A stretch of DNA of 64,000 bases from Aldrovandia affinis (Eukaryota > Chordata > Actinopteri > Notacanthiformes > Halosauridae). Both the position numbers and the translations under genes were made by a program. Shown one piece after another: positions 5,061 through 61,719 of the stretch. The stretch is from positions 6,516,001 through 6,580,000 of the forward strand of contig JAINUG010000011.1 of NCBI GenBank assembly GCA_029706075.1. The letters are read 5' to 3'. The notes under the pieces are model-generated. The model made no database searches, was not told where the DNA came from, and saw nothing but the letters and a program-made list of their open reading frames with translations. How positions within the stretch are numbered: the first letter of the stretch is position 1; every line of letters starts with the position of its first letter.

Positions 5061-5172
5061 GTGGACTCGAGTCATTGTGACTTGGACTCGAGTCGACTCA
5101 AGTCACTGTTTTGATGACTTGGGACTTGCTTGAGACTTGGACCAAATGACTTGAGACTTACTTGTGACTTGG
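5061..5172. repeat. Degenerate GACTTG/GACTCGAGTC repeat tract
   Basis: A run of variants of gacttg, gactcgagtc and cgactcaagtc that includes small palindromes. It resembles repeats dispersed in fish genomes. It ends 25 nt upstream of the 5198 exon. Confidence 0.7.
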
Positions 5173-5197
5173 TCCCATGTCTGCTTGTCTCCCCCAG

Positions 5198-5358
5198 CTG
5201 GTTGTCAGACGGTCAGTTCTGCCGGGTGCTGGACGACAGTGGGACCTTTGTGGAGTGCGCCTGCTCCCACCTGTCCATCTACACCGCCTTCGCCGAGACT
5301 GACTCTCTCTCCGACTATAACGAGGCCTTCTACGTCTCAGGGTTCATCTGCATCTTCG
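5198..5358 (+). CDS. adgrv1: ADGRV1 exon with GPS cleavage motif and TM1 start
   Basis: The acceptor cttgtctcccccag precedes 5198. After the split Ser codon, 53 codons read WLSDGQFCRVL... to ...YVSGFICIF, ending phase 1 at G|gtgggt. It contains the GPS motif CACSHLSIY. The His-Leu-Ser triad (codons at 5268, 5271 and 5274) is the canonical autoproteolysis site of the GAIN domain, with cleavage between Leu and Ser. The Ser after it would begin the tethered-agonist (Stachel) segment SIYTAFAETDSL. The hydrophobic end (SGFICIF) starts TM1. The paired GPS cysteines CxC and upstream tryptophans are present. Intact, and diagnostic for an adhesion GPCR. Confidence 0.95.
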
Positions 5359-6148
5359 GTGGGTTCTGGAGCCGCTTCTCCGCTGTCCGCATGGCAGGCA
5401 CAGCAGCACTGTTTCACACCTCAATCCGGAGCTGTTCCATGGGCTCTTTTCCCCTTTATGTTAATAACGTTATTTATGAAGAGCTTTTGATACATTTGCA
5501 GCTAAAAGTGCTTTAGAGAGATTAAAAGGATGGGTAAAACGGAGCACAGTAGTGTAGTGTGCTTTCTGCACTAGTGTAGAAAGCACATTTGAATACATAA
5601 AAAATAAATAAAGGGGATCTGAAATCATTTTTAAAACTACTGTATTTAAAAACTTGAAGTCATATAATAACATTAAATAAAATGATAAATAAGAAATAAA
5701 AAGTACATTCAACTAAAAAGTGGTAATGCAATTAAAAGCAAGAATGTAATGAGTTTCGTAAAACATTTTCTTTTTGTAAATGAGTTTTTAAAAAGGATTT
5801 AAAGGAACACACAGCTGATCTCTTCAGGAAGACTAATTTTCATGTTGAAGGGTTCCTGTCCATTGCCCCTTTAATGAAAGTTTTGATGTGTGAGGATGCA
5901 GAACAATGGTCGGCTTTGTCCTACAGTTGCCTTTTAACACATATGTGTAATTAGAGCTTGGCATTAACTAGGAGTTTATAAGTGTTTTAAAAACTTCAGA
6001 GAAAGTACTGTTTTGGACCAAGTACACACCAAGACCCTTAAAAGTCAGATTTACAACTGCGTAGTGTGTAGGGCCAAACACTGCCTGCTTTTTACTTCAT
6101 TATATATCCTTAGTACCTTTTTATTTTGCAGAACAGACTAATACTAAT
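5359..6148 (+). other. Intron sequence, AT-rich, nothing recognised
   Basis: First 790 bases of the 1-kb intron between the 5198 and 6366 exons. It is AT-rich, with no coding or repeat structure I can name. Confidence 0.6.
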
Positions 6149-6173
6149 GTGTGTTCTTTTGTGTGTGTATGTG

Positions 6174-6223
<50 letters not shown>

Positions 6224-6352
6224 TGTTGGTGCATATATGTGTGTGTGCATATGTGTGTGTTTGTGCGTGTTTGTGTGTGTTTGTGCTTGTGTTTGTGCAT
6301 ATACATGTGTATGTGTGCATGCGTGCGTGCGTGTGTGTTTGTGTGTGTGTGC
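6149..6352 (+). repeat. (TG)n microsatellite next to a splice acceptor
   Basis: About 200 bases of TG dinucleotide repeat with scattered interruptions (ca, tt, gc). It ends 13 nt before the 6366 exon. Only gctctggtccttcag separates it from the exon. Confidence 0.95.
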
Positions 6353-6365
6353 TCTGGTCCTTCAG

Positions 6366-6466
6366 GGTTTGCCTCGGCCATCCTGTCCCATGTGCTGTGC
6401 TCCCGATTCCCCATGTTTGCTGCCAAACTTCTCTCTCACATGATGGTGGCCTGTCTGGGGACCCAG
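6366..6466 (+). CDS. adgrv1: ADGRV1 exon, TM1 end to TM2
   Basis: After ggtccttcag the exon completes a Gly codon and encodes 33 further residues: [16 protein letters not shown], then [16 protein letters not shown]. It ends phase 0 at CCCAG|gtaaga. This is the second half of TM1, the first intracellular loop and most of TM2 of ADGRV1. At 101 nt it is not a multiple of three, so skipping it would shift the frame. Intact. A 28-kb intron follows. Confidence 0.94.
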
Positions 6467-8964
6467 GTAAGATGTCATCACTGACATTTCTATATTTTTG
6501 GGCTGGAAATGCTATTGCATTATGCATTACTGTAATACTGTGTTGTACTGTAGTGGTAAAGCTTGCCACCGTCAACAAGAAACCACACACGGCTACGATG
6601 TTTTAGTTCAGGCCTTTATTGGTGACCCTCACCACTGAGATATGGACACAAGTTACCACAATCACAGCCCTACTGTCTCGACAACTGTATATTTACTGAC
6701 TTATCAGGTATAGTGAAATGCACACTTTACCTGACAACAGCTGGGTTGGAGTTGGTTATTTAAAACCATGAAAAGAACATCCTCGTGGACCACCGATCTG
6801 CCAGTCAACACCACCATCACACGCCCCAGATGTCGGCTACTATTTTCCAGGGATTGTTAGCAAACCGTAGGAAGAAAAGTCAAGCAGATACCAACAAATG
6901 TGGGCAACGCTACCTGCTACTCGCTACTCCCGAGCCCTGACAACAAAACAATCTTTAGAGGGGGGGTGCCATTATTAAAGTGGAGAAAGAGATATGTGGT
7001 TGCTGAGGTGGTTGACGGTGCTCATTTGGTGTGGCTGTGTGTATTTTAATGGGGTCTCTCCCTGGAGCTGGGAATTTTCCACTGGTATTACTCATGGAGG
7101 GAAGACAAGGCAAACACCAGCCCTACTTACATAGGGGCGCTCTGTGTTGTCCCTTTTATTGTCCTGCCTAACACTATTTTGGATGGAAAATTCTACTCCT
7201 TCTCTTTTTCAACCATGCACAGTACAAGTGTGACACATCAAATCACCGGGGACATGAAGTGACAGCATTGCACACTCTCAAAATGTGCAGAAGGTCCAAT
7301 TCCACTCTCAAATATGTCCTCAGAGCGATTCCTGTGATACCAGATCCCTTAAATCTTGGAGACTCTGCTCTCTATGTTCCTGTCTGGTTTGGCTTGCTGA
7401 GGATGGATGAATGCTGAGGTGTTTCAGGGGCTTAAGGAGCTATGATAAGTTTCACTAAACATTCAGAAGAATGGACAGAATCTTCTATGAAATCGTGTAA
7501 CTCTAGAGAATCTTTGATCAAACTCAGTGCAGTATTTGGATAGGCTGGACACTAAGCTATGGACTACTTATGGACTCTTAGGCCTGTGCAGTTAGTTGGC
7601 GGGGCTAGGGAGAATCTTGCAGGCACTTCCAGGGCTAGAAGGCTTCCACATTAGCTCATCATTGGCAGTTTGTGCAAGCGAAGCGTCCAGCCGCACCTTC
7701 GTCCCCTCGAGTTTCCACCGAACGCTTCCTGCTCAGGGAGACTCTGGCAGCCAGAGGGGCAGAGGTCAAGGGTCACTTCCTCCACTGTATCCACAGGTGA
7801 CAGATATTGCTTCGGTACTCCGCTGTTAGATCCAAAAAGGGTGCAAGGTTCTCAATCTGTTGGTTTCGGAGTGTTTGCGATTAAACCCTGATTTGAATTC
7901 ACAGGGCAGAGAACTGAAATTAACATCCCTCTTTTTTTCCCTTTTAAAAAGATGCATAAATTCTGTCAGGTTTTAGTTGACTTGGCTTTCATTCACAGAT
8001 TTGTCAGTTGGGAAAGCAGTCCCCATGTGAATCCATGCTGATTTATAGTGAGAAAATTCCTCTCCTTACATACATTTGTAAGGCCCGGCTTGTGCTGGTT
8101 GCCAGTTAATGACTTTCTCTGGACGTTAGTATGATTGGCATGGGATTTCTCCTTCACACAGCTGTGACACTCTGAGAAAGGCCACTGCAGGAGGGGGTCT
8201 GGCCTAATGTTAAGAATCCATACTGTGCTCCCAATCAGAACATTTTATTTAGAAGGAACCCCTCCCGTAACCAGATAAAGCCAGCCCTGTGACAAAGTTC
8301 TGTGAGTGTTCCTACCACTGACCTGACCTGAAATTAGGCTGTCTTGTGATTTTTCCTTTGCTTCCTTGTTACCTCACTTCCTACACAGTTCATATGACAT
8401 GATAATGAGATTCCTTACAGGCTTGACCTGATGCTACTCACAATTCGACTTCAGCTTAATCACTTAAGTTTGACCTTCATTTAAAACGCAGTGGCAGAAA
8501 TCTCCAAATCTGTCGATGCTTCGTATGAAATATGAACACCAAAGGTATCTAAATGAGTTTACAGAATCTGCAGATTTGACTTTGAACTCGGGCTCAGTGT
8601 GTCTTGAGGAAACGAGGAAGTGACATTGCCTCTTGAGCAGAGTCCCTCACTTTAGGCTACCCCTCTGCTTTCCATCCTAGCCTCTGGAGATCTGTGATCC
8701 CCTTTATCTTTTAAAGAAGTCTGTTTTCTCCTTTCTATGGCATCATTTCAATCCATCTTTTATTTCCATAACTTTTTTATTACCTCTGAGGCAAAAGCAA
8801 AAGGATGATCAAAGGCATATCAAACTATATTTTTCCTCACAATCTTAATTGTAATTGCCGCGCTGTACGGACACTATTTGCAAATACCTTTACCTGTAGT
8901 AAAGGTTCAAGGCTTCCGTGAAAGGAAGCTCGTCCTCTGCAGTTCTCGTAGGACATCACATTAG
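6467..8964 (+). other. Intron sequence, nothing recognised
   Basis: Start of the 28-kb ADGRV1 intron. The sequence looks unique, with moderate GC and only short open frames. I see no transposon ends, RNA genes or conserved exon. Confidence 0.55.
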
Positions 8965-13540: not shown

Positions 13541-14112
13541 TGTATACAAAGGGAAATCGCTTTGCCTGACGGGATTACTGTGTCATACGTGCAGAGAGTT
13601 TGAGCGGATTGTTTGTTGCTGTCGTGATATTATTGGGATTGTCCTTTGTATTGTTGCTTAGGGTTTGGCGTTTTGTCATCAGAAAGGGTAAAAGGATAAA
13701 ATATTTGCTCTTAAGGTAAACGTTTGTCGCCGTTAGGGGACAGAGAGGGAATTTTCAATTTTTCGATTTGGCATTACATCCAGCTGAGGTTTTTTGTGGT
13801 TTTTCGCCCTCTCAGGAGCAAATCCAAAAGCAGGGAAATATACTATAGCTAACTCGTTTTTGTTGGCTTAAATTTCATTGTTATATTTCAAGCGTTGAGC
13901 GTATAGCCGTTTCGGTTGGCTGCTACTAGCTCTCTTGCTACAGACAACCGGACTGAACGTTTTCTAATTAGCTTTAAGTGTTTCCATTTAGAAATTTCTG
14001 CACCTGACTTTTCGGAACCACCTCGGTGTATAGTATTTTTATCGACTTGGTGTCTCTGTTTTGCCAGTAATTCGTTCAGTGCAGGGAGAGCAATAGATAT
14101 ATTTAGGGGAAA

Positions 14113-14970
14113 ATGTGGGCATCGGTAGTGCAGTGCGAGTGTTGCAGGATGATTGCGTTTCTGGAAGGAGACTTCCAGGAGGGTTTTGTCTGCGACCGTT
14201 GCCAGCTTGTGAAGGATCTCGAGAGCAAGATTCTTGAACTCGAAGCCCAACTTGCTGGTCTCGACTGCCCTGCAGAATTTGTAGAGTTCCAGGAACTAAT
14301 TAGTACGCCCTTTAGAGAGTTAGCCTGCATGCCCAAACGGGGTAGGGGGGAGCCTCTAGAGCAGGTAGGGAGAGAGATTTGGGCGATGGTAGGGCGCCAG
14401 CGTAGAAAAGGGCACGCACATGCAGGGGCGGCATCTCCAGAGATTGTGGTGTCCAACCGATTCCAGCCCTTGCAGGAAGAGGATCTGGCCCAGCCCTCTG
14501 TGAGTGGGAGGACTGATGAGCCCCAGGGCACCCTGGCAGCCATGCCACTGAGGAAAAGGGAGTTAATTGTAGTGGGGGATTCTATAATTAGAGGTATAGA
14601 CAGTATAGTATGTTCACGGGAAAAGGAATCTCGCATGGCATGTTGCCTGCCTGGTGCTCAGGTTGGAGACCTCCTGGAACACGCAGACAAGCTCCTGGCC
14701 CGAGCAGGGGTGGATCCAGTGGTCATGGTCCATGTTGGAACCAATGACATAGATAAGGGTAGGTTTGAGGTTCTGCAGGACAAATTTATAGAATTAGGAT
14801 CAAAGTTAAGGGGCAGAACCTCCACGGTGGTCTTCTCTGGAATTCTGCCAGTACCACGTACTAGCAAAGGTAAGCAGAATGGAGATGATTTAAGACGTGG
14901 CTCCAAACCTGGTGTAGGAAAGAGGATTACAGGTTTATGGGGCACTGAGACTCCTTTGGAACAGGGGTGA
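14113..14970 (+). pseudogene. CR1 ORF1: zinc-finger plus esterase protein, C-terminally broken
   Basis: The 285-codon frame starts MWASVVQCECCRM. Cysteines at residues 8, 10, 11, 27 and 30 (CECC...CDRC) form a PHD/zinc-knuckle-like N-terminus, and a short coiled-coil-like Leu/Glu segment follows (about 33-50). An SGNH-hydrolase domain begins with VVGDSIIRG (GDS at 155-157) and continues to HVGTNDIDKG (GTND at 209-212). Past about residue 255 the frame no longer resembles the rest of the esterase domain (block V with its Asp/His is missing) and it stops at the edge of a perfect hairpin. In intact CR1 the ORF1 protein takes part in RNP formation. This copy is probably truncated by a deletion or frameshift. 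Confidence 0.85.
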
Positions 14971-15014
14971 GTCTGTACCTCCCTATCCCCTACATGGATA
15001 GGGAGGTACAGACT
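14970..15014. repeat. Perfect 19-bp inverted repeat (hairpin), 7-nt loop
   Basis: The left arm, agtctgtacctccctatcc (14970-14988), is the exact reverse complement of the right arm (14996-15014). The loop is cctacat. It lies exactly where the ORF1 frame ends, between CR1 ORF1 and ORF2. Confidence 0.95.
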
Positions 15015-15125
15015 GCCCAGATGGAAGATACCAGGACAGAGTATAATAAATCTGAGGATATAATTAATAAAGATGTTTTGGATCATAATGTGAATATGAG
15101 GTGAGGTGGTTCAGCACAGTTATGT

Positions 15126-15839
15126 GTGGAGGGGAAGGGCAACGTAAGTGTGAGTAAGGCTCTGAAAGTAATGTGTTTAAATGGGAGAAGTATCAAAAAT
15201 AAATTTTTGGAAGTGGAGGCTGTCATGTTGAATGGGGCTTATGACATTGTTGGGATTACTGAGACATGGCTTGGCGCAGCGGATGGGGATGAATATAATG
15301 TAGAGGGTTACAAATTGTTTAGGAAGGATAGAACTAATAAAAGAGGAGGGGGAGTGGCCCTTTATGTGAAAGACAATCTTAATGTTCAGGAAATTCCAGG
15401 TATAAACTCATTTGTTTCTTGTGAGGACATCTGGATTAGATTACTGCGAGATCATGAGAAGGACCTTAATATAGGAGTATGTTATAGACCTCCAGCTTCA
15501 GACAGTAACATAAATAGTGTGCTCTTTGGTAACATAAAACAAATCTGTGCTGAAGGAGAGACAATAATAATGGGCGACTTCAATTACCCCTCTATTAATT
15601 GGGAGATAGTGACAGGTCAGGGCAAATGTGAAGAGGAGTTTTTAGATATGGTCAATGACTGCTTTTTGGTACAGTCTGTTACTCAGCCTACGAGAGGGAA
15701 ATCAATACTGGATCTGGTTTTGTGTAACAATCCTGATAGAATTTGCAGCACAGAGGTAGGAGAACCACTAGGGGCAAGTGACCACAGTGCAGTTATTTTT
15801 TATATTTTTTGGCAAGTTAAGACAGCCTCCTCTAACTAG
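15126..15839 (+). pseudogene. CR1 ORF2, N-terminal AP-like endonuclease
   Basis: Starts around MEGKGNVSVSKALKVMCLNG. Motifs of the apurinic-type endonuclease are visible in order: LNGRSIKNK, DIVGITETWL (catalytic Glu), GVCYRPP, IIMGDFNYP (Asp/Asn) and GASDHSAV (catalytic Asp-His). The enzyme nicks target DNA for target-primed reverse transcription. The frame ends at 15839 after a frameshift near 15790-15830. The continuation (FYFRRADFNKM...) is in another frame and meets a stop at about 15973. It belongs with the reverse transcriptase at 16754 as one original ORF2. Confidence 0.88.
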
Positions 15840-16110
15840 ATTTTTTTATTTTAGACGAGCTGACTTTAATAAAATGAGCGAGAATTTAAGTAATATAGAA
15901 TGGGTAAAACTTCTAGATTGCAGAACTGTGAATGAAAAATTGACAATATTTAAAAGGGTTATTGTAGATGTATAGTGTAAATTCATCACAAAAGTAAGGA
16001 CAAATAGGATGAAACAATTGTGTCCACAGTGGATGACTAAATCTTTACAGGAGATTTTGAGGCAAAAGAAGCGACTGTACAGAGTATATAAAAAGGATAA
16101 CTCAGAGAGA

Positions 16111-16475
16111 GGCGGCACGGTGGTGCAGTGGGTAGCGCTGTCGCCTCACAGCAAGAAGGTCTCGGGTTCGAATCCAGGCCGGGGGCCTTTCTGTGTGGAG
16201 TTTGCATGTTCTCCCCGTGTCCGCGTGGGTTTCCTCCGGGTTCTCCGGTTTCCTCCCACAGTCCAAAGACATGCACGTTAGGCTAATTGGAGAGTCTAAA
16301 TTGCCCGTAGGTATGAGTGTGTGAGTGAATGGTGTGTGTGCCCTGCAATGGATTGGCGACCTGTCCAGGGTGTATTCCTGCCTCTCGCCCGGAACGCATG
16401 CTGGGATAGGCTCCAGCACCCCCGCGACCCTGACCAGGAATAAGCGGCTTAGATAATGGATGGATGGATGGATGG
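16111..16475 (+). mobile_element. tRNA-headed SINE with (TGGA)n tail, nested in CR1
   Basis: It starts ggcggcacggtggtgcagtg with box A (tggtgcagtgggtagcg) and box B (ggttcgaatcc). It then carries the widespread fish body (tttgcatgttctccccgtg) and ends gcggcttagataatgg plus (tgga)n, as in RTE-mobilised SINEs. It is flanked by a perfect 12-bp target-site duplication, aactcagagaga, at 16099-16110 and 16476-16487, inside CR1 ORF2. Complete and probably comparatively young. Confidence 0.93.
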
Positions 16476-16753
16476 AACTCAGAGAGAAACAAGTTAGATT
16501 ATTGTAATATATAATAATAAACTACAAAAACTTAAGACAAATAAGGCAGCAGGCCCAGATGGCATATATCCCAGAGTACTCAAAGAACTTGGGGAAATTA
16601 TATATAAACCATTGACAGATATTTTCATCCATAATCACTGGAGAAATACCAGATGACTGGAAGCAGGGAAGTGTAATTCCAATATATAAGAAGGGGGACC
16701 GTACTAACCCAGGGAACTATAGGCCTGTCAGTTTAACTTGCATCGCATGTAAA

Positions 16754-17836
16754 ATGCTGGAATGTATTATTAGGGATAAGTTGGAATCATTCTTGAAAAA
16801 TAATTGTATTTTAAGGGAGAGCCAACATGGTTTTCTGAAAGGGAGGTCATGCCTAACAAACCTCCTGGACTTTTTTGAAGAGGCTACAAAGTGTGTTGAC
16901 CTGAACCAGGCTTATGTTATATATTTGGACTTTCAGAAAGCTTTTGACAAGGTCCCACATGAGAGGCTCATTGCTAAAATGAATTCAGTAGGAATTGCAG
17001 GAGTAGTTTCAGAGTGGGTTCATAATTGGCTGCAAGGGCAAATACAAAGAGTAACAGTAGGTGGGGCCGTATTTGACCTCGGTGCTGTGGGCAGTGGTGT
17101 CCTGCAGGGATCGGTGCTGGGCCCTCTGCTCTTCCTTATTTACATAAATGATCTTGATATGGACGTTAGTAGCAAAATAGTTACATTTGCAGATGATACT
17201 AAACTTGGGGGTTTGGCAAACAGTTTGGAATCGACTAAAGTAATCCAAGATGATTTAAACAAAATCCCAAAATGGGCAGATACATGGCTGATGACATTCA
17301 ATATTGCTAAATGTAAAGTTATGCATGTGGGAAAGAAAAACATTAGACAGGAGTATTTTATGGGAGGAGAAAAGTTAGTAGGTGTTCAATTTGAAAAAGA
17401 CTTAGGAATTGTAGTTGATCAAAGCCTATCTGCATCAAAGCAGTGTGCTACAGCAGTGAAACAAGCCAACAGGATGCTGGGATACATAGCAAAAAGTATT
17501 GAGTATAAATCAAAGGAGGTTATATTAATGTTATATAATGCCTTTGTCAGACCTCACTTAGAATTCTGTGTGCAGTTCTGGGCACCACACTACAAGAAAG
17601 ATATAGAAGCTCTTGAAAAAGTCCAAAGAAGGGCAACTAAACTGATACCTGGTATGAAAGGTAAAAGTTATGATGATAGACTTAAGGCACTCAATCTATT
17701 TAAATTTAGCAAACGGAGACTTAGGGGGGATTTGATTGAGGTTTTTAAATTCCTAAAAGGGATTAACAAAGTGAAATGCCAAAGATTTTTTAAGATAAGT
17801 GGAGTCAGCAGAACAAGAGGCCACAGGTGGAAATGA
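16754..17836 (+). pseudogene. CR1 ORF2, reverse transcriptase domain
   Basis: The 360-codon open frame shows the RT blocks: QHGFLKGRSCLTNLLDF, YLDFQKAFDKVPHERL (motif A Asp), GVLQGSVLGPLLFLIYINDL (motif B) and FADDTKLGG (catalytic Asp pair; FADD at residues 145-148). The CR1-typical thumb and C-terminal segment follows (VRPHLEFCVQFWAPHYKKD, then VQRRATKLIPG and KRRLRGDLIEVFKFL). Upstream RT sequence (AAGPDGIYPRVLKELGEI) is present at about 16540-16600 in a different frame with stops. The frame is lost again after RTRGHRWK. The RT core is well preserved, but the whole ORF2 is disrupted. Confidence 0.92.
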
Positions 17837-33943: not shown

Positions 33944-34166
33944 CCACAGTGTGGTATAATGGTTAGGGAACTGGGCTTGTAACGTTAAGGTTGCAGGTTC
34001 AATCCCCAGGTGGGACATTGCCGTTGTACCCTTGAGCAAGGTACTTAACCTGAATTGCTTCAGTTAATATCCAGCTGTATAAATGGATTGTAAATAAAAT
34101 GTAAAACTGTAAGTCGCTCTGGATAAGAGCATCTGCTAAATGCCTGTAATGTAATGTAATGTAATG
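33944..34166 (+). mobile_element. tRNA-derived SINE with LINE2-type tail (UnaSINE-like)
   Basis: The head has box A (tataatggttagg) and box B (ggttcaatccc). The body is cttgagcaaggtacttaacc, the tail is gtaagtcgctctggataaga followed by gcatctgctaaatg, and it ends in four TGTAA-type pentamers. Same family as the minus-strand copy at 13327-13540. It ends about 350 bp before the 34513 exon. Confidence 0.9.
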
Positions 34167-45087: not shown

Positions 45088-45223
45088 TTGTTGAAGTCCT
45101 TGCTGTATTCCTGCACTGATCTTGTGTGCTAACTGTGATTGTTCCTACCATGTATTAATGCACATCTTGTAAGTCGCTCTGGATAAGAGCGTCTGCTAAA
45201 TGCTTAAAATGTAAATGTAAAAT
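45088..45223 (+). mobile_element. SINE fragment (tgttcctaccatgtattaat body)
   Basis: The body gattgttcctaccatgtatt and tail gtaagtcgctctggataaga, gcgtctgctaaatg, end in (AAATGT)-like repeats. The same body and tail occur at 60734-60902 (+), 56489-56667 (-) and, more diverged, 63701-63873 (-). Confidence 0.82.
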
Positions 45224-52062: not shown

Positions 52063-52165
52063 TACACTCAATGGCCATTAGGTACACCTGTACACCTGCT
52101 CGTTAATGCAATTATCTAATCAGACAATCATGTGACAGCAACTCAATGCGTAAAAGCATGCAGAC

Positions 52166-52675
52166 ATGGTCAAGAGGGTTAGTTGTTGTTCAGACCAAAA
52201 GTGGGGGAAGGAATGTGATCTAAGTGACTATGACAGTGGAATGATTGTTGGTGCCAGACTGGGTGGTGTGAGTATCTCAGAAACTGCTGATCTCATGGGA
52301 TTTTCACACACAAAAGTCTCTAGAGTTTACAGAGAATGGTGCGAAAAACAAAAAACATCCAGTGAGCGGCATTTCTGTGGACAAAAACACCTTGTTAATG
52401 AGAGAGGTCAGAGGAGAATGGCCAGACTAGTTCAAGTAACCATGCGTTACAACAGTGGTATGCAGAAGAGCATCTCTGAACGCACAACACGTCGAACCTT
52501 GAAGTGGATGGGCTCCAGCAGCAGAAGACCACACCAGGTTCCACTCCTGTCAGCTAAGAACAGGAAAGTGAGGCTACAGTGGGCACAGGCTCACCAAAAC
52601 TGGACAGTTGAAGATTTGAAAAACGTCACCTGGTCTGCTGCGACATGCAGATGGTGGGTTCAGAATTTGGCGTAG
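52166..52675 (+). pseudogene. Tc1-like transposase, N-terminal half
   Basis: MVKRVSCCSDQKWGKECDLS, then helix-turn-helix-like segments (GVSISETADLMGFSHTKVSR; SERTTRRTLKWMG) that bind the terminal repeats in this family. The frame reaches NWTVEDLKNVTWSAA and then runs out of frame. The first catalytic Asp (normally WSDES) has been deleted along with about eight codons. An internal segment before ITMRYNSG-like sequence also appears shortened. Inactive. Confidence 0.88.
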
Positions 52676-52688
52676 ACAACATGAATCC

Positions 52689-53204
52689 ATGCATCCATCC
52701 TGCCTTCTGTCAACGGTTCAGGCTGGTGGTGCTGGTGGTGGTGTAATGGTGTGGGGAATGTTTTCTTGGCACACATTAGGCCCCTTAATACCAATTGAGT
52801 ATTGTTTAAATGCCACAGCCTACCTGAGTCTTGTTGCTGACCATGTGCATCCTTTTATGGCCACAGTCTACCCATCTTCTAATGGCTACTTCCAGCAGGA
52901 TAATGCGCCTTGTCACAAAGCACACGTCATCTCAAGCTGGTTCCACGAACGTGACAATGAGTTCAGTGTACTCCAATGGCCTCCACAGTCACCAGATCTC
53001 AGTCCAATAGAGCACCTTTGGGATGTGGTGGAATGGGAGATGCGCAACATGAATGTGCAGCCAACAAATTTGCAACAACTGCGTGATGCTATCATGTCAA
53101 CATGGACCAGAATTTCTGAGGAATGTTTCCAGCACCTTGTTGAATCCATGCCACAACGAATTCAGGCTGTTCTGGGGGCAAAGGGGGGTCCTACCCAGTA
53201 CTAG
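52689..53204 (+). pseudogene. Tc1-like transposase, C-terminal catalytic half
   Basis: Continues the transposase in another frame: GGVMVWGMFSWHTLGPL, YFQQDNAPCHKAH (second catalytic Asp) and SPDLSPIEHLWD (catalytic Glu). I count 36 residues between Asp and Glu, not the 34 of classic Tc1. It ends ...GAKGGPTQY just before the right terminus. With the first Asp lost in the upstream piece, no active enzyme can be made. Confidence 0.88.
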
Positions 53205-55671: not shown

Positions 55672-55765
55672 CTGTCCAGTAGGGCTGACCTCATTTAGTC
55701 GACTGGTTGATTGTTTGGTCGATGGGCTGTTGGTCGACCAAGATTTGTTTTGGTCGAGCAGTCGC

Positions 55766-56188
55766 CTTCCCTATTCCCTATTCCCTATATAGTATATACT
55801 ATATAGTGTACTATTTAGAGAACGAAAGTAGTGTTTTCGGAGACTACAACTGAACGTCATTTGCGTCAAAAAAACAAAAAAAAAGTGCCGGATATTCAGG
55901 TGACGCAAGCGAATCATTTCTGTCGCTGTATTTCTTTCTGTCGCCATTCTTTCCCTTCTCTCCTTCGGCATGACACGACCGCATTGCATTGTGGTAGACG
56001 GGATCAATTCTAGGGTAAAGTAGGGTACAGTCGATGTACACTACAAATCACGGTGAATTGTGGGTATTTTCTCGTTCCCTATTTAGTGTACGAAATTCAC
56101 ATTTTAGAATTCGTCGCACTCTACAAAATGGCGTCCACACAAAGTAGTGTACTAAATAGGGAATAGGGAGTGGTTTCGGACACGGCCC
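55766..56188. mobile_element. MITE nested in hAT copy 1
   Basis: Left part ccctattccctatatagt, right part gtgtactaaatagggaatag then ggagtggtttcgga. This is a fish MITE type with partly palindromic ends. It is absent from hAT copy 2 and explains most of the 441-bp length difference. Confidence 0.75.
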
Positions 56189-56488
56189 TAGATTCGCTCC
56201 ACAGTTTGGCGCGCTTGTCAGTAGAATAATCCATTCTGGACACTGCAGGTATGGCAGTGACAGTCCTTCACTCTTAACATAGCTAGGCCTATATATGTTC
56301 TCTTTAAATTATATTGGGCAGTTACGGTAATAGTAATGTGAATAATTCTGCAAAACTAATAAAAGTAACATTTTATAATAAATGTGTTTTGCTAATTGTA
56401 TGGTTTATATATTTATATCTAACATGCGTAACACCCCCTTTCATGTAGCCTATATTGTATCCTTCTTGTTTTAGGCATGCGAATGTGC

Positions 56489-56667
56489 ATTTTACATTTT
56501 TATATTTTTACATTTTATCCAGAGCGACTTACAAGATGTGCATTAATACATGGTAGGAACAATCATAGATTGCGCAAGAGATCGCAGTGCAGTAGGCCTA
56601 TACAGCGATAGACATCATTGCAGGAAGCTGTGTACCATACCTGTAACACTGGGAAGGAAAAGGTTCG
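56489..56667 (-). mobile_element. SINE segment carried by hAT copy 1
   Basis: On the minus strand it reads tgttcctaccatgtattaat then cttgtaagtcgctctggata and an AT-rich tail. The equivalent segment sits at 60734-60902 in hAT copy 2, at the corresponding place, so it was in the family before the copies separated. Confidence 0.82.
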
Positions 56668-56803
56668 TAAAATTATTATTATTATTATTATTTTTGTGTA
56701 TGCGCGCCCCCTCATTTTAATTGTAGCCTAAGATTTGCCTACAGTTAAGATTAGTGATATAGGCATACTTTAATTACTCATTTCGATATAACCTAAGAAC
56801 ATA

Positions 56804-56917
56804 ATGTCAAAGAACAAATCTGGAGTATGGCAGCATTTCGTTTTAGTTGCGGACGATCCCAAAAAAGTGCAATGTACACTTTGCAAGCGCGTGTTCCAAG
56901 GCAGGGTTTATTGTTAA
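56804..56917 (+). pseudogene. hAT transposase N-terminus: BED zinc finger remnant
   Basis: 37 codons, MSKNKSGVWQHFVLVADD then PKKVQCTLCKRVFQGRVYC, then TAA. W9 and F12 with C24-x2-C27 fit the first half of a BED-type zinc finger (DNA binding in hAT transposases). The distal His/Cys half is missing. Confidence 0.75.
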
Positions 56918-56924
56918 TAAAACA

Positions 56925-56990
56925 AGGAGCAGCCTTTTGCCAAAAAATGTGGACAAGCTAGTGTTCCTGTGCCATAACATGAAATGGCTG
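56925..56990 (+). pseudogene. hAT transposase C-terminal dimerisation-domain remnant
   Basis: In the +1 frame relative to the BED start: SLLPKNVDKLVFLCHNMKWL resembles the extreme C-terminus of hAT transposases (pattern L.P.NV.KLVFL..N). Only a few bases separate it from the BED part, so nearly the whole catalytic domain is deleted. Confidence 0.7.
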
Positions 56991-57660
56991 GGGAAGTTGG
57001 CCATCGGATGGTCTCCAACTCGAGTAAGTTATTTTCGATAGGCTATAGCCACTTTATGTTCAGCTTTAAGCTACAATTTAAGACATTAGGCTATGTGTGA
57101 TCATTCATTTGTTACCCTATTTTTTTGCAAAATATATTTTAAATCCCAATGAGACCAACCTGGTTAATTAAATAAAACATAGCCTACACATTAGAATGTG
57201 TTATGGTTGTGGTCAAATAAAAGCATCAGCCTATTATGTGGCCATACTGCAACTTCACAAGCGCAACGGCAGAATCTGCAAGGGCAGCATGAAGAGGCTT
57301 GGAACGGAGAATTTCTTTTTTTCCTTTCAGGTAATCTTGAACTCCGGCTCTATAAAGTCATTAGCCTATTGTTACTCATTTGTGTCATTCACTTAAGAAA
57401 GTTATAAAACATGAGACAAGCGCAGTGTGCATATAGTTGTATTTATTAAAACAAATAGGGTGTGTCATATAGAAAAAACTTTTCGACCAATCGAAAAAAA
57501 CGGATGACTGTTGGTCGACCAAGATTTGTTTTAGTCGGGGACAGCCCTACTTGAATTACTGTCATGAGTCTGTTTGGATATGTCTCTACCAGCTTTGCAC
57601 ACATAGACTGGGCAACGTTTGCCCATTCTTCTTTACAGAACTGTTCAAGCTCAGTCAGAT

Positions 57661-58300
57661 TTAGTGGGGACTGTCGATGGCTGCGCTCTTCAAGTCATTC
57701 CACAGGTTTTCAATAAGATTTAGGTCAGGGCTCTCACTAGACCACTCAAGGACATTCACATTTTTGTTTTTTAGCCACTCCACTGTTGCTTTTACTATGT
57801 ACTTTGGGTCGTTGTCATGCTCAAAAGTGAACCTTCTCAATTTCAACGTTCTTGCAAAGGGCAGCAGGTTTTTTCTGGAATGTTTCTGTATTTTGCTCCA
57901 TGCATTTTCCCTTCTCACCTGACAAGTACCCCAGTAAGGATGGTGTTCTTTGGGTGATGTGCTGTATTGTGTTTTCGCCAAACATAAATTTTTGTCCTAA
58001 ATGCAAACTTGGTTTCATCTGACCACAGCACTTTTTCCCACATGACTTCAGAATCTTCAGTGTGTTTTTTGCATACCGCAAAGGGTACTGAATATGGATT
58101 TTTTTGAGTAGTGGCTTCCTTCTTGCCACCGCACCATACAGACCAGAATTGTGGAGAGCTTTCTGTATTGTTGACACATGCACACATTGCCCACTCTTCA
58201 TAGTTGCCATTGGCCTCTTGGTGGTCAGTCTCCTTCTTACTTGGTCATCCAGCTTGGATGAATGGCCTGATCTAGGCAAGGTCCTGGTGGCGCCATGCAA
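57661..58300 (-). pseudogene. Tc1 (DD34E) transposase, frameshifted
   Basis: Segments in three frames: GHSSKLDDQVRRRLTTKRPM (N-terminal DNA-binding region), [13 protein letters not shown] (first catalytic Asp), [14 protein letters not shown] (second Asp) and [15 protein letters not shown] (Glu). There are 34 residues between the second Asp and the Glu, the classic Tc1 spacing. A deletion between TILTG and VRREN removes the segment that normally carries a Gly-rich W.CFS motif. Inactive. Confidence 0.88.
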
Positions 58301-58348
58301 CTTGCACTTCTTAATTATGGTCTTGACCGTGCTCCAAGGGATATTTAA
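58272..58348. repeat. 77-bp direct duplication within Tc1, copy 1
   Basis: Starts ctaggcaaggtcctggtggc and ends caagggatatttaa. It matches 58631-58707 with about seven differences. Confidence 0.85.
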
Positions 58349-58630
58349 CGCTATTATGTTTGTGGTCTAAATAGATTTAATGGGTGATTTAATGGTTTAC
58401 ATATCAAATATCAAATCTGTCAATCAGATGAGATGTGAATTGTTCTTACTTATTCTCATCTCAATCAGATTTTTAAGCCAATATGCACAATATATGACTT
58501 ATTAAGTGTTAACTTTGTTTTTTCTTCTCCAAATTGGATTGATTGGGTTTAGCTCTTCGTCAGCAAATTGTAGTTGTCCCAAATATGTTTTGGATGAAAT
58601 ATCAATGCTGTTCTTTCATATGTAGAATAT

Positions 58631-58707
58631 CTAGGCGAGGTTCTGGTGGTGCCATGCAACTTCAACTTCTTAATTATGGTCTTGATCATGCTCCAAGGGA
58701 TATTTAA
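58631..58707. repeat. 77-bp direct duplication within Tc1, copy 2
   Basis: Starts ctaggcgaggttctggtggt. The 282 bp between the copies is not Tc1-like. Either two diverged Tc1 fragments abut, or the element was duplicated and interrupted here. Confidence 0.85.
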
Positions 58708-59141
58708 GGCCATTTAAATCTTTCTATACCCATTTCCTGATATGTGCCTTTCCACAAGAGTTCTTTTGAAAGCTCCTTGTTGCTCATGGTGGATTCTTTA
58801 CAATGAAATACACTACCCAGTAGTGGAATCCTCGAGAAACAGCTGATTTTATTCTGAAGTAATCATAATCACTACAATTGAACACAGGTGGAGGCCATTT
58901 AGCTTGGTGTGTGATCTGGGCTGTGATTGGTTACCCCTGAGCTAGTTTTAATATGTTTCAATTTCAGACTGTAAAGTGTAGATGAATACTTTAAAGGGGC
59001 ATTGTATATGGTTTCATTTTCTGTTGATTCCATGTTCAGGAATTATCTGGTTCTCCCTCCTGATAGAGCATGCTCTGTCATGTTATTCTTTGCCCTCTAC
59101 TGAATCAAAACGCTTCATAATTTCAGAAAGATATGAATAAT

Positions 59142-59326
59142 GTGGTTCTGTGTGGCCCAGTAGGTAGAGCATGGCGTTTGCAATGCTTAGGTTGTGGGTT
59201 CAATTCCCACTGGGACCACATATACTGAACAAAATTATGCACTCACTACTGTAAGTCACTTTGGATAAAAGCATCTGCTAAATGGCATATATATTATATG
59301 ATTATATTATATTATATTATATTAAT
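59142..59326 (+). mobile_element. tRNA-headed short SINE
   Basis: The head has box A (tggcccagtaggtagagc) and box B (ggttcaattcc), close to a tRNA fold. The tail is gtaagtcactttggataaaa, then gcatctgctaaatgg and a TATAT-rich end. It is the more complete relative of the element at 24635-24780. A functional tRNA is unlikely because it runs directly into the SINE tail. Confidence 0.85.
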
Positions 59327-60055
59327 AACACACAGTGGTTTTTATACCTGTCTTTATTCAACACTGGCATCTTCCTAGAACTGTGTCCCCTAGAAAGAAA
59401 ATCACACAATAGACAGAAGTAAATAAACGGTCATGTTTAGTTCGGCATCGAAAGAATGAACTGTGTATTTGAATTTGTGTTTACAGCAGAAATGAAAACC
59501 CCCACACAAAAGCAACCTTCTATCAAGTTGCTGTGGAAGCTGACAGTGGAGAACAGTAGTAACTGTGCTCTTGTTAGCTTAGTGTGCTGTCCCATTCACT
59601 GGTTTGCAAATCATTGGCAATCCTACTTGCCAGCATACTGTGACCAAGGCCATTACATTTGTAATATTCAGAATGGAAAAAAGATTAGATATAGAGTAAG
59701 ACCTGTGTGTATCTATGAGTCAAGATGTGAGAAATATTGTTTCATGGTCAACAAAAGCAGATTGTGGCTAGCCATGTGTGAGGAATAAATAGCATTTTTG
59801 GACTGACTGGCCTGAAATTGGAGATGTAAAAATGTATTTTTTATTTTTTAACAAAATTGTTTCACAGTTTAGTTTTCACAGTTTCACATTGTAATTTCTG
59901 CACATTTTTGGAGGTGTTAATCTTTTTTTTAATTACACAAAACATTTGTTCATTTCATCTTGAGCTGTGAAGCAATATGAGATTGCCATTACTTATTATA
60001 GAAAGGGATCCACTCAGTGTTTTGATTGAACTGACCACGAATTCCAAGAGGTGGA
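59327..60055 (+). other. Intron sequence between Tc1/SINE and hAT copy 2
   Basis: AT-rich. A chance open frame at 59456-59788 has no recognisable domain. No transposon ends besides the flanking ones. Confidence 0.5.
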
Positions 60056-60409
60056 CTGGACAGTAGGGCTGTCCCCGACTAAAACAAATCTTGGTCGACC
60101 AACAGTCGTCCGTTTTTTTCAATTGGTTGATTGGTTGAAACGTTTTTTCTATATGACACACCTTATTTGTTTTAATAAATACAACTATAGTTTCGAGCTC
60201 ATGCTGCCCTTGCAGATTCTGTCATTGCGCTTGTGAAGTTGCGGTATGGCCACATAATAGGCTGATGCTTTTATTTGACCACAATCATAACACATTCTAA
60301 TGCGTAGGCTATGTTTTATTTAATTAACCAGGTTGGTCTCATTGGGATTTAAAATGTATTTTGCAAAAAAAGTGGCTATAGCCTATCGAAAATAACTTAC
60401 TCGAGTTGG

Positions 60410-60606
60410 AGATCATCCTTCTTCCCCAGTTGTTTCATGTTATGGCACAGGAACACTAGATTGTCCAATTTTTTTGGCAAAAGGCTGCCACTTTTTTGCC
60501 GTTTTATTAACGATAAACCCTGCCTTGAAAAACGCGCTTGCAAAGTTTGACGAAATGAAAAACTAAAACGAAATGCTGCCATACTCCAGACTTTTTTATT
60601 TGACAT
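60410..60606 (-). pseudogene. hAT transposase remnant in copy 2
   Basis: Starts MSNKKVWSMAAF on the minus strand with an early frameshift relative to copy 1. The C-terminal SLLPKKLDNLVFLCHNMK segment follows directly, showing the same internal deletion as copy 1. Confidence 0.7.
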
Positions 60607-60733
60607 TATGGTTATAGGTTATATCGAAATTAGTAATTAAAGGCCCATGTCACTAATCTTAACTGTAGGCAAATCTTAGGCTACAATTAAAATGAGGGGG
60701 CACGCATACAAAAAAAAATTATAATAATTGTAC

Positions 60734-60902
60734 GAACCTTTTCCTTCCCAGTGTTACAGGTATGGTACGCAGCTTCCTGCAATGCTGTCTATCGCTGTAT
60801 AGGCCTTGCGTGATCTATGATTGTTCCTACCATGTATTAATGCACAAGTCGCTCTGGATAAGAGCGTCTGCTAAATGCTTAAAATGTAAAAATGTAAAAT
60901 GT
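60734..60902 (+). mobile_element. SINE segment carried by hAT copy 2
   Basis: Contains gtgttacaggtatggtacgc, tgttcctaccatgtattaat and agtcgctctggataagagcg. It is the counterpart of 56489-56667. Confidence 0.85.
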
Positions 60903-61500
60903 ACATTCACGTGCCTAAAACAAGAAGGATAGAATATAGGTTACATGAAAGGGGGTGTTACGCATGTTGTTATAAATATATAAACCATACAATTAGCAAA
61001 ACACATTTATTATAAAATGTTACTTTTATTAGTTTTGCAGAATTATTCACAACATTACTATTACCGTAACTGCCCAATATAATTTAAAGAGAACATATAT
61101 AGGCCTAGCCAAGGCCGTAACCATGGAGTCAACATTGGGGGGGACCAAATCTTTTTTTTATATCAGCTAGGCTATATATTGGGGGGGACATTTTGAGCAT
61201 ATCTGAATATTGGGGGGGATGTGTCCCCCCCAATATATAGGCCTTGGGCCTAGCTATGTTAAGAGTGAAGGACTGTCACTGCCATACCCGCAGCATCCAG
61301 AATGGATTATTTTACTGACAAGCGCGCGGAACTGTGGCGCGAATCTAGCTGCCTCATGCTGCGTGGAGAATTTTTTAATTATTTTATTTTATTTTATTTT
61401 ATTTCGCGCGACTGCTCGACCAAAACAAATCTAGGTCGACAACAGCCCATCAACCAAACAATCGACCAGTCGACTAAATGGAGTCAGCCCTAAATTCAAG

Positions 61501-61719
61501 CAAAGGGTGCTTCTACAAAGTACTAACTCAACAGGGTGCAGAATGATCAGTCCAAGTTATTCTAGTTTTTTTAATCTGTATTAATGTTCAGAAATTTTCA
61601 CTTGGAAGTTGTAGCGTATAATGTGTATATAAAGGTGGATAATCTGATTTAATATGTTTTAATTTCAGGCTGTAAGGCAACAAAAGGTGACATTTTTGAG
61701 ACTTTAAAGGGCACTGTAT
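61501..61719 (+). mobile_element. Tc1-like transposon, 3' end fragment
   Basis: Begins caaagggtgcttctacaaag, the sequence that normally follows the Tc1 transposase end, and finishes with a terminal region (ttaatatgttttaatttcag, then gcactgtat). This resembles 58947-59010 and is in direct rather than inverted orientation to it. It is the detached 3' end of the minus-strand Tc1 at 57558-59010. Confidence 0.82.

Follow-up and report, generated by a model that had tools for sequence, protein, structure and literature searches.

Exchanged target duplications and a divided Tc1 element point to an inversion between two hAT copies in Aldrovandia affinis

In a contig of the fish Aldrovandia affinis, a short segment is bounded by two homologous hAT copies in opposite orientation, and neither copy has a matching target duplication on its two sides. 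Does this arrangement record an inversion of the segment, and if so, by what mechanism has it arisen? The question was approached within a window of 64,000 nucleotides (the whole stretch analysed: assembly GCA_029706075.1, contig JAINUG010000011.1, positions 6,516,001 to 6,580,000), and all positions given below refer to this window. The features are collected in Table 1.

Table 1. Features of the hAT pair, the segment between the copies and the Tc1 element
Feature	Position	Strand	Remarks
Target duplication A, outer left	55672..55679	+	CTGTCCAG
hAT copy 1	55680..57549	+	ends TAGGGCTG...CAGCCCTA; BED zinc-finger reading-frame remnant near 56803
MITE nested inside hAT copy 1	55767..56187		pieces of seven other genomic copies mostly 97-99.6% identical
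Substitution-free stretch, copy 1	56248..56417	+	170 sites, one 3-bp indel between copies
Target duplication B, inner left	57550..57557	+	CTTGAATT
Inverted segment	57550..60063		minimal extent; exchange point itself would fall within the hAT copies
Tc1/Sleeping Beauty-type body, 5′ TIR and transposase remnant	57558..59004	-	
Target duplication A, inner right, reverse complement	60056..60063	+	CTGGACAG
hAT copy 2	60064..61492	-	orientation opposite to copy 1
Tract partner in copy 2	60971..61109	-	resumes at 61255-61288
Insertion nested in hAT copy 2	61102..61254		137 bp (61110-61246), perfect 8-bp duplication GGCCTAGC
Target duplication B, outer right	61493..61500	+	AATTCAAG
Detached 3′ end of the same Tc1 element, with TIR	61501..61716	+	TA at 61717-61718

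Exchanged duplications and the divided Tc1 element

Both elements belong to the hAT superfamily by their 8-bp target duplications and terminal inverted repeats, and a 31-residue remnant in copy 1 matches the BED zinc finger (zf-BED, E 2.5e-4). In the present order, the flanks of each copy agree as direct duplications at 2 of 8 bases. The outer left octamer is, however, the exact reverse complement of the inner right one, and the inner left octamer that of the outer right one (8/8 for both pairs), so that one flip of the segment restores an 8-bp duplication to both hAT copies. The reciprocal matches drop to 0-5 of 8 bases when shifted by 1 to 6 bases; as estimated from the window's own octamers, a single match of this kind has a chance of 3.7e-5, and the two together 1.4e-9. 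The swap of flanks in the original prediction was borne out, with every coordinate exact. Insertion as a macrotransposon was also considered and is ruled out, the outer octamers CTGTCCAG and AATTCAAG forming no direct pair.

The Tc1 element, which is assigned to the Tc1/Sleeping Beauty group by its TA duplication, TIRs, and Tc1/SB-like transposase, is cut in two by the same arrangement. TA lies next to its termini at 59004/59005 and 61716/61717, and these termini, direct in the present order, become inverted repeats once the segment is flipped, just as had been anticipated. The flip was likewise expected to rejoin the Tc1 body to its 3′ end, and in the flipped order the C-terminus does continue in frame, matching Sleeping Beauty to the last residue; the rejoined end aligns with SB100X (5cr4) over residues 190-230 (E 2.9e-9), spanning the junction. 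Eight further Tc1 copies were retrieved from this genome, and the alignment of each spans the flipped junction (8/8); when compared with the present order, these eight relatives show similarity that starts no more than 3 bases from the junction or past it. A single inversion event is thus supported by the duplications, by the Tc1 element, and by the family copies.

A Pfam search with the joined 42-residue Tc1 end gave no transposase match, the only entry listed being T4_Y13H (E 0.0085, under its cut-off), and none of the six stretches matched by the Tc1 protein in viral contigs was confirmed. No match was obtained for exact hAT patterns in viral contigs and genome contigs or for the hAT DNA in phages and plasmids. 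The inverted segment also contains a tRNA-derived SINE (59153..59291, plus strand), in which a tRNA-like stretch is followed by a UnaL2-type 3′ end.

The hAT copies and their family

The arms of the two hAT copies are 94.5% identical, with 63 substitutions in 1155 aligned sites once nested insertions and ambiguous stretches are set aside, and their longest common exact stretch is 81 bp. Orientation errors in assembly classically arise at inverted repeats, which lends some weight to the idea that the assembler misoriented the segment between two similar copies. Nevertheless, the window lies within a 9.82-Mb contig and is free of any N, the copies are set apart by the above substitutions together with large indels, and an artefact by itself does not account for the rare states that they share locally (see below). 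Assembly error is an unlikely source of the orientation, and the probability that we assign to such a misplacement is very low.

It had been foreseen that mismatched flanks at other hAT copies would weaken the inference. The control set comprised 63 copies, of which 37 have both termini by BLAST and 43 by a looser rule leaving the ends free to move by one base, the remaining 20 being more truncated; duplicates (L064, L065, L066, L068, and L078) and the window's own copies (L010 and L050) were left out of this larger set. Flanks matching at 7-8 of 8 bases were found for 35 of the 37 copies (8/8 in 30, 7/8 in 5, 6/8 in 1, and 4/8 in 1) and, under the looser rule, for 37 of the 43 (8/8 in 33 and 7/8 in 4), the other six matching at 6, 5, 4, 4, 3, and 2 bases. 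Thus, matched flanks are the rule in the family, yet six of 43 near-complete copies have no more than 6 of 8 bases in common between their flanks. The lack of a direct duplication is hence not peculiar to this pair and, taken by itself, says little; it is the reciprocal match that carries the inference.

The identical tract and the mechanism of the inversion

For family comparisons, 40 copies were scored of 3545 first-look candidates and 40 of 3130 in a second round (L032 was dropped from one comparison and kept, in a trimmed form, in a later one). The overall identity of the pair falls within the lower 20% of family pairs; this ranking kept 56503-56536, 56845-56877, and position 55766, which the polarised counts leave out as ambiguous. 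Of 20000 shuffles, 49 gave a substitution-free run of at least 170 sites, such as the two copies share. If pairs are ranked only by the length of their longest run, this pair comes 6th of 820 and, in the larger set, 21st of 2080; the case for the tract therefore depends on its length and its rare states taken together. Among the 820 pairs it is the sole one with a substitution-free run of at least 150 sites carrying two rare shared states, and when the 2080 pairs of the larger set are screened for a run of this length with one or more rare states, two pairs remain, of which it is one. One of these states, A>G at 56316, is common to both copies and occurs in 0 of 60 others; the second is weaker in the larger set, being present in 3 of 59 others. 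We infer that the stretch is a conversion tract and the probable site of the crossover, although a conversion tract could form without the crossover. The 137-bp insertion in copy 2 sits within the tract and is, therefore, most simply younger than the exchange. That each hAT copy is chimeric is a prediction, for which the likelihood ratio is only 5.6 with 39 copies (calculated by hand from counts) and 2.2 with 63 copies, few linked variants being shared among those sampled.

Ectopic homologous recombination between the inverted hAT copies is likely to have flipped the 2.5-kb segment. In this scenario, CTGTCCAG and, 2.5 kb away within a Tc1 element, AATTCAAG would each have received a member of one hAT family, the two facing opposite ways. 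A later crossover between them, probably in 56248-56417 and with a short gene-conversion tract, would have flipped the DNA lying between the copies, thus exchanging the inner target duplications and carrying the Tc1 body off from its 3′ end. The exchange was probably homologous and intrachromosomal, and the two insertions would have preceded it. A point against this reading is that no uninverted haplotype was found, 59300-60055 (part of the inner segment) having a single match in this one assembly.

The swap alone is no proof of recombination because hybrid-element insertion yields the same pattern. Here, hAT ends from sister chromatids with one original insertion would jointly insert at a second site, and Delprat et al. 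(2009, PMC2775673) describe a strikingly similar outcome, in which an inversion likewise leaves the duplications exchanged but starts out with two identical copies. Maize Ac makes inversions by alternative transposition (PMC8225341). The two hAT copies, however, are no closer to each other than to other family members and have no private states shared throughout; outside the tract, the shared derived states at scored sites are only two G>A changes, which 3 and 4 other copies carry as well. Moreover, copies born together should be equally old, but their right-side loads of unshared mutations are 13 and 31 (P 0.0096). Hybrid-element insertion thus fits poorly and has, in our estimation, little chance of being correct; it might still apply if the event closely followed the first insertion and conversion of the tract came afterwards. 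Recombination is favoured because copies no closer than other members are yet identical over 170 sites and because their mutation loads are unequal. Alternative transposition to a new site was rejected as well, since it would leave a new matching duplication (PMC8225341), and there is none here.

In place of a crossover, replication could have switched templates between the inverted hAT copies (MMBIR-like), a route that has been proposed for smaller Alu-mediated human inversions (PMC9675761). At this locus, there is no deletion or insertion at the junctions, the four octamers and the Tc1 reading frame being intact; clean junctions, although they speak against template switching, are compatible with it too, and we regard this route as highly improbable. 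Recombination between the copies might even have continued, the hAT pair acting as a standing flip-flop that toggles the segment repeatedly in the population. This extension is rather doubtful; if true, both orientations would be segregating, and the tract would be held identical by repeated conversion.

Related inversions and the meaning of the locus

The Ac element belongs to the hAT superfamily. As in the present case, the maize Ac/fAc inversions have a transposon at each breakpoint, but they show a new matching 8-bp duplication at the breakpoints (PMC8225341), whereas here two old ones are exchanged. The Galileo inversions 2j, 2q7, and 2z3 of Drosophila buzzatii (Delprat et al. 2009, PMC2775673) resemble this locus in that a single DNA transposon supplies the two oppositely oriented copies at the breakpoints, the target duplications are exchanged, and nested insertions have normal duplications; in 2z3, the exchange was located within 141 bp. 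Galileo belongs to the P superfamily and makes 7 bp duplications, in contrast to the 8 bp of hAT here; the present inversion spans 2.5 kb, its chimerism is a prediction, and the disrupted Tc1 adds independent evidence on orientation. Human inversions mediated by transposable elements also have element copies in opposite orientation at the breakpoints, and their median length of 2,454 bp may be compared with 2,514 bp here; those 15 inversions (PMC9675761) are Alu- or LINE-1-mediated and derive from sequencing data and assemblies, whereas here a DNA transposon is involved and the evidence comes from target duplications.

The mechanism of inversion is already known, and the locus is probably an unusually complete example of it: within one assembly, the original orientation of a transposon-mediated inversion is supported by three independent lines of evidence, and a candidate site of the exchange is mapped. 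The likeness and age of the two copies help to tell recombination from alternative transposition. Since the signature of exchanged duplications can be scanned for genome-wide, it becomes possible to count how often DNA transposons cause micro-inversions in such genomes.

Reciprocal duplications at the two hAT copies

The four 8-mers flanking the two hAT copies are present in the sequence exactly as originally noted. Direct duplications are lacking at both copies, whose own flanks agree at 2 of 8 bases, and each flanking 8-mer is the reverse complement of an 8-mer at the other copy; this reciprocal match drops to 0–5 of 8 once the register is shifted by 1 to 6 bases. Against a background of the window's own 8-mers, the chance of both full reciprocal matches is 1.4e-9. 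The hAT arms show 94.5% identity over 1155 aligned sites, with nested insertions and ambiguous stretches left out, and a K2P divergence of 0.056 in a scan where eight columns were counted twice.

Mismatched flanks in other copies at uninverted loci had been named beforehand as weakening the inference. The 1.22-Gb assembly provided a control set of 63 other family copies, from which duplicates and the window's own two had been removed. In the 37 with both termini detected by BLAST, the direct duplication matches at 8/8 in 30, 7/8 in five, 6/8 in one and 4/8 in one; under a looser rule, with ends free to move one base, 43 copies qualify, 33 of them at 8/8 and four at 7/8. Most controls are thus matched, but a minority (6/43, looser rule) is not, so the weight of the inference lies on the reciprocal match and not on the mere absence of a direct duplication. 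These six (L031, 6/8; L074, 5/8; L013 and L014, 4/8; L015, 3/8; L072, 2/8) are complete or near-complete copies with flanks at no more than 6/8, and possibly have decayed termini or other rearrangements.

It seems unlikely that the inversion was introduced by the assembly: the window contains no N and lies on a 9.82-Mb contig, the hAT copies differ by large indels, and the longest exact stretch common to them is 81 bp. No second haplotype of the inner segment was found in the assembly, where 59300–60055 has a single match.

The Tc1 element and neighbouring features

If the inner segment (57550–60063) is flipped to its presumed original orientation and hAT copy 2 removed, the Sleeping Beauty-type Tc1 element reads ...AKLVETYPNRLMTVIQAKGASTKY-stop, with the frame kept through the junction, which supports the proposed rejoining; its TA-flanked termini likewise become inverted repeats. 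Residues 2–42 of the joined end (42 residues) align ungapped with the Sleeping Beauty SB100X C-terminus (5cr4, residues 190–230; E 2.9e-9), and the separate Tc1 body has an HTH_Tnp_Tc3_2 domain (E 2e-9). Eight family places were fetched, picked from plus-strand hits of the 39 other places scored, and all eight align through the junction in the flipped order. Six extend a long way to either side, a 2–4 base gap falling at the junction in three; L081 has a 12-base gap shortly beyond the junction, and L080 reaches only 9 bases past it and then aligns again in a second segment close to the end. Without the flip, similarity in all eight starts at most 3 bases from the junction or past it. The Tc1 body also contains an 86-bp direct duplication, whose two units (58270–58355 and 58629–58714; 90% identical) lie about 270 bp apart.

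Features of the window (window positions)
Feature	Position	Remark
hAT copy 1	55680–57549	(+); inverted relative to copy 2
hAT copy 2	60064–61492	(-); inverted relative to copy 1
Nested MITE	55767–56187	within hAT copy 1
Two exon-like stretches	5118–6484	match Adhesion G protein-coupled receptor V1 (9fte), E 2.7e-4 and 4.5e-8
UnaL2-type LINE 3′ ends	59238–59291, 34096–34149, 45157–45209, 60829–60884	one directly after tRNA-like stretch 59153–59210; one within hAT copy 2
Second Tc1-type transposase	52154–53204	in two frames; HTH_Tnp_Tc3_2 and DDE_3
Non-LTR retrotransposon remains	14107–17836	endonuclease and reverse transcriptase domains

The nested MITE has many genomic copies, 96–99% identical over the first 134 bases, and was therefore probably active recently. 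The UnaL2-type LINE tails and the Sleeping Beauty-like Tc1 point to a teleost as the most likely host.

Candidate exchange site and mechanism

The longest substitution-free stretch of the pair (170 sites, 56248–56417, with one 3-bp indel inside) is read as a putative conversion tract at the crossover. A run of at least 170 was reached in 49 of 20,000 shuffles over all sites and in 198 of 20,000 with 56537–57055 left out; ranked on run length only, the pair comes 6th of 820 and 21st of 2080. Within the tract, both copies carry 56316 A>G (0/60 others) and 56325 A>C (3/59 others). With 39 other copies, theirs is the only pair of 820 with a run of at least 150 holding two rare shared states; the L022–L043 pair also has two, but its run is 129. 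When 63 copies are used and rarity is set by frequency, 56316 A>G still counts as rare but 56325 A>C does not. The longest run then holds one or more rare states in 27 of 2080 pairs, and it is 150 or longer in two of these, the window's pair and L042–L047. A nested 137-bp insertion with its own perfect duplication, GGCCTAGC, lies inside the tract in copy 2; copy 1 lacks it, which makes a date after the exchange the simplest reading. Each copy is predicted to be a chimera; left of the tract, copies 1 and 2 have 6 and 4 derived states against 39 copies (likelihood ratio for chimerism 5.6, by hand) and 5 and 4 against 63 (ratio 2.2), and the sampled copies share few linked variants.

Exchanged duplications are described by Delprat et al. 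(PMC2775673) as compatible with ectopic recombination or with hybrid-element insertion, in which the two copies are identical at the start. Several observations speak against both hAT copies having been made together by such an insertion. Their identity over all aligned columns, ambiguous stretches included, is 92.7%, in the lower 20% of pairs, as for ordinary family members. At 812 right-hand sites polarised against the 63 copies, copy 1 has 15 derived states and copy 2 has 33; only two are common to both (both G>A, found also in 3 and 4 other copies), and the unshared loads are unequal (13 versus 31, P 0.0096).

Place among known inversions

At 2,514 bp, the inversion is similar in size to human element-mediated inversions, for which PMC9675761 gives a median of 2,454 bp. 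The literature searched, which took in few subscription journals, yielded no earlier description of exchanged duplications at a fish hAT inversion. The rearrangement looks like an inversion of the Galileo type, here by a hAT family.
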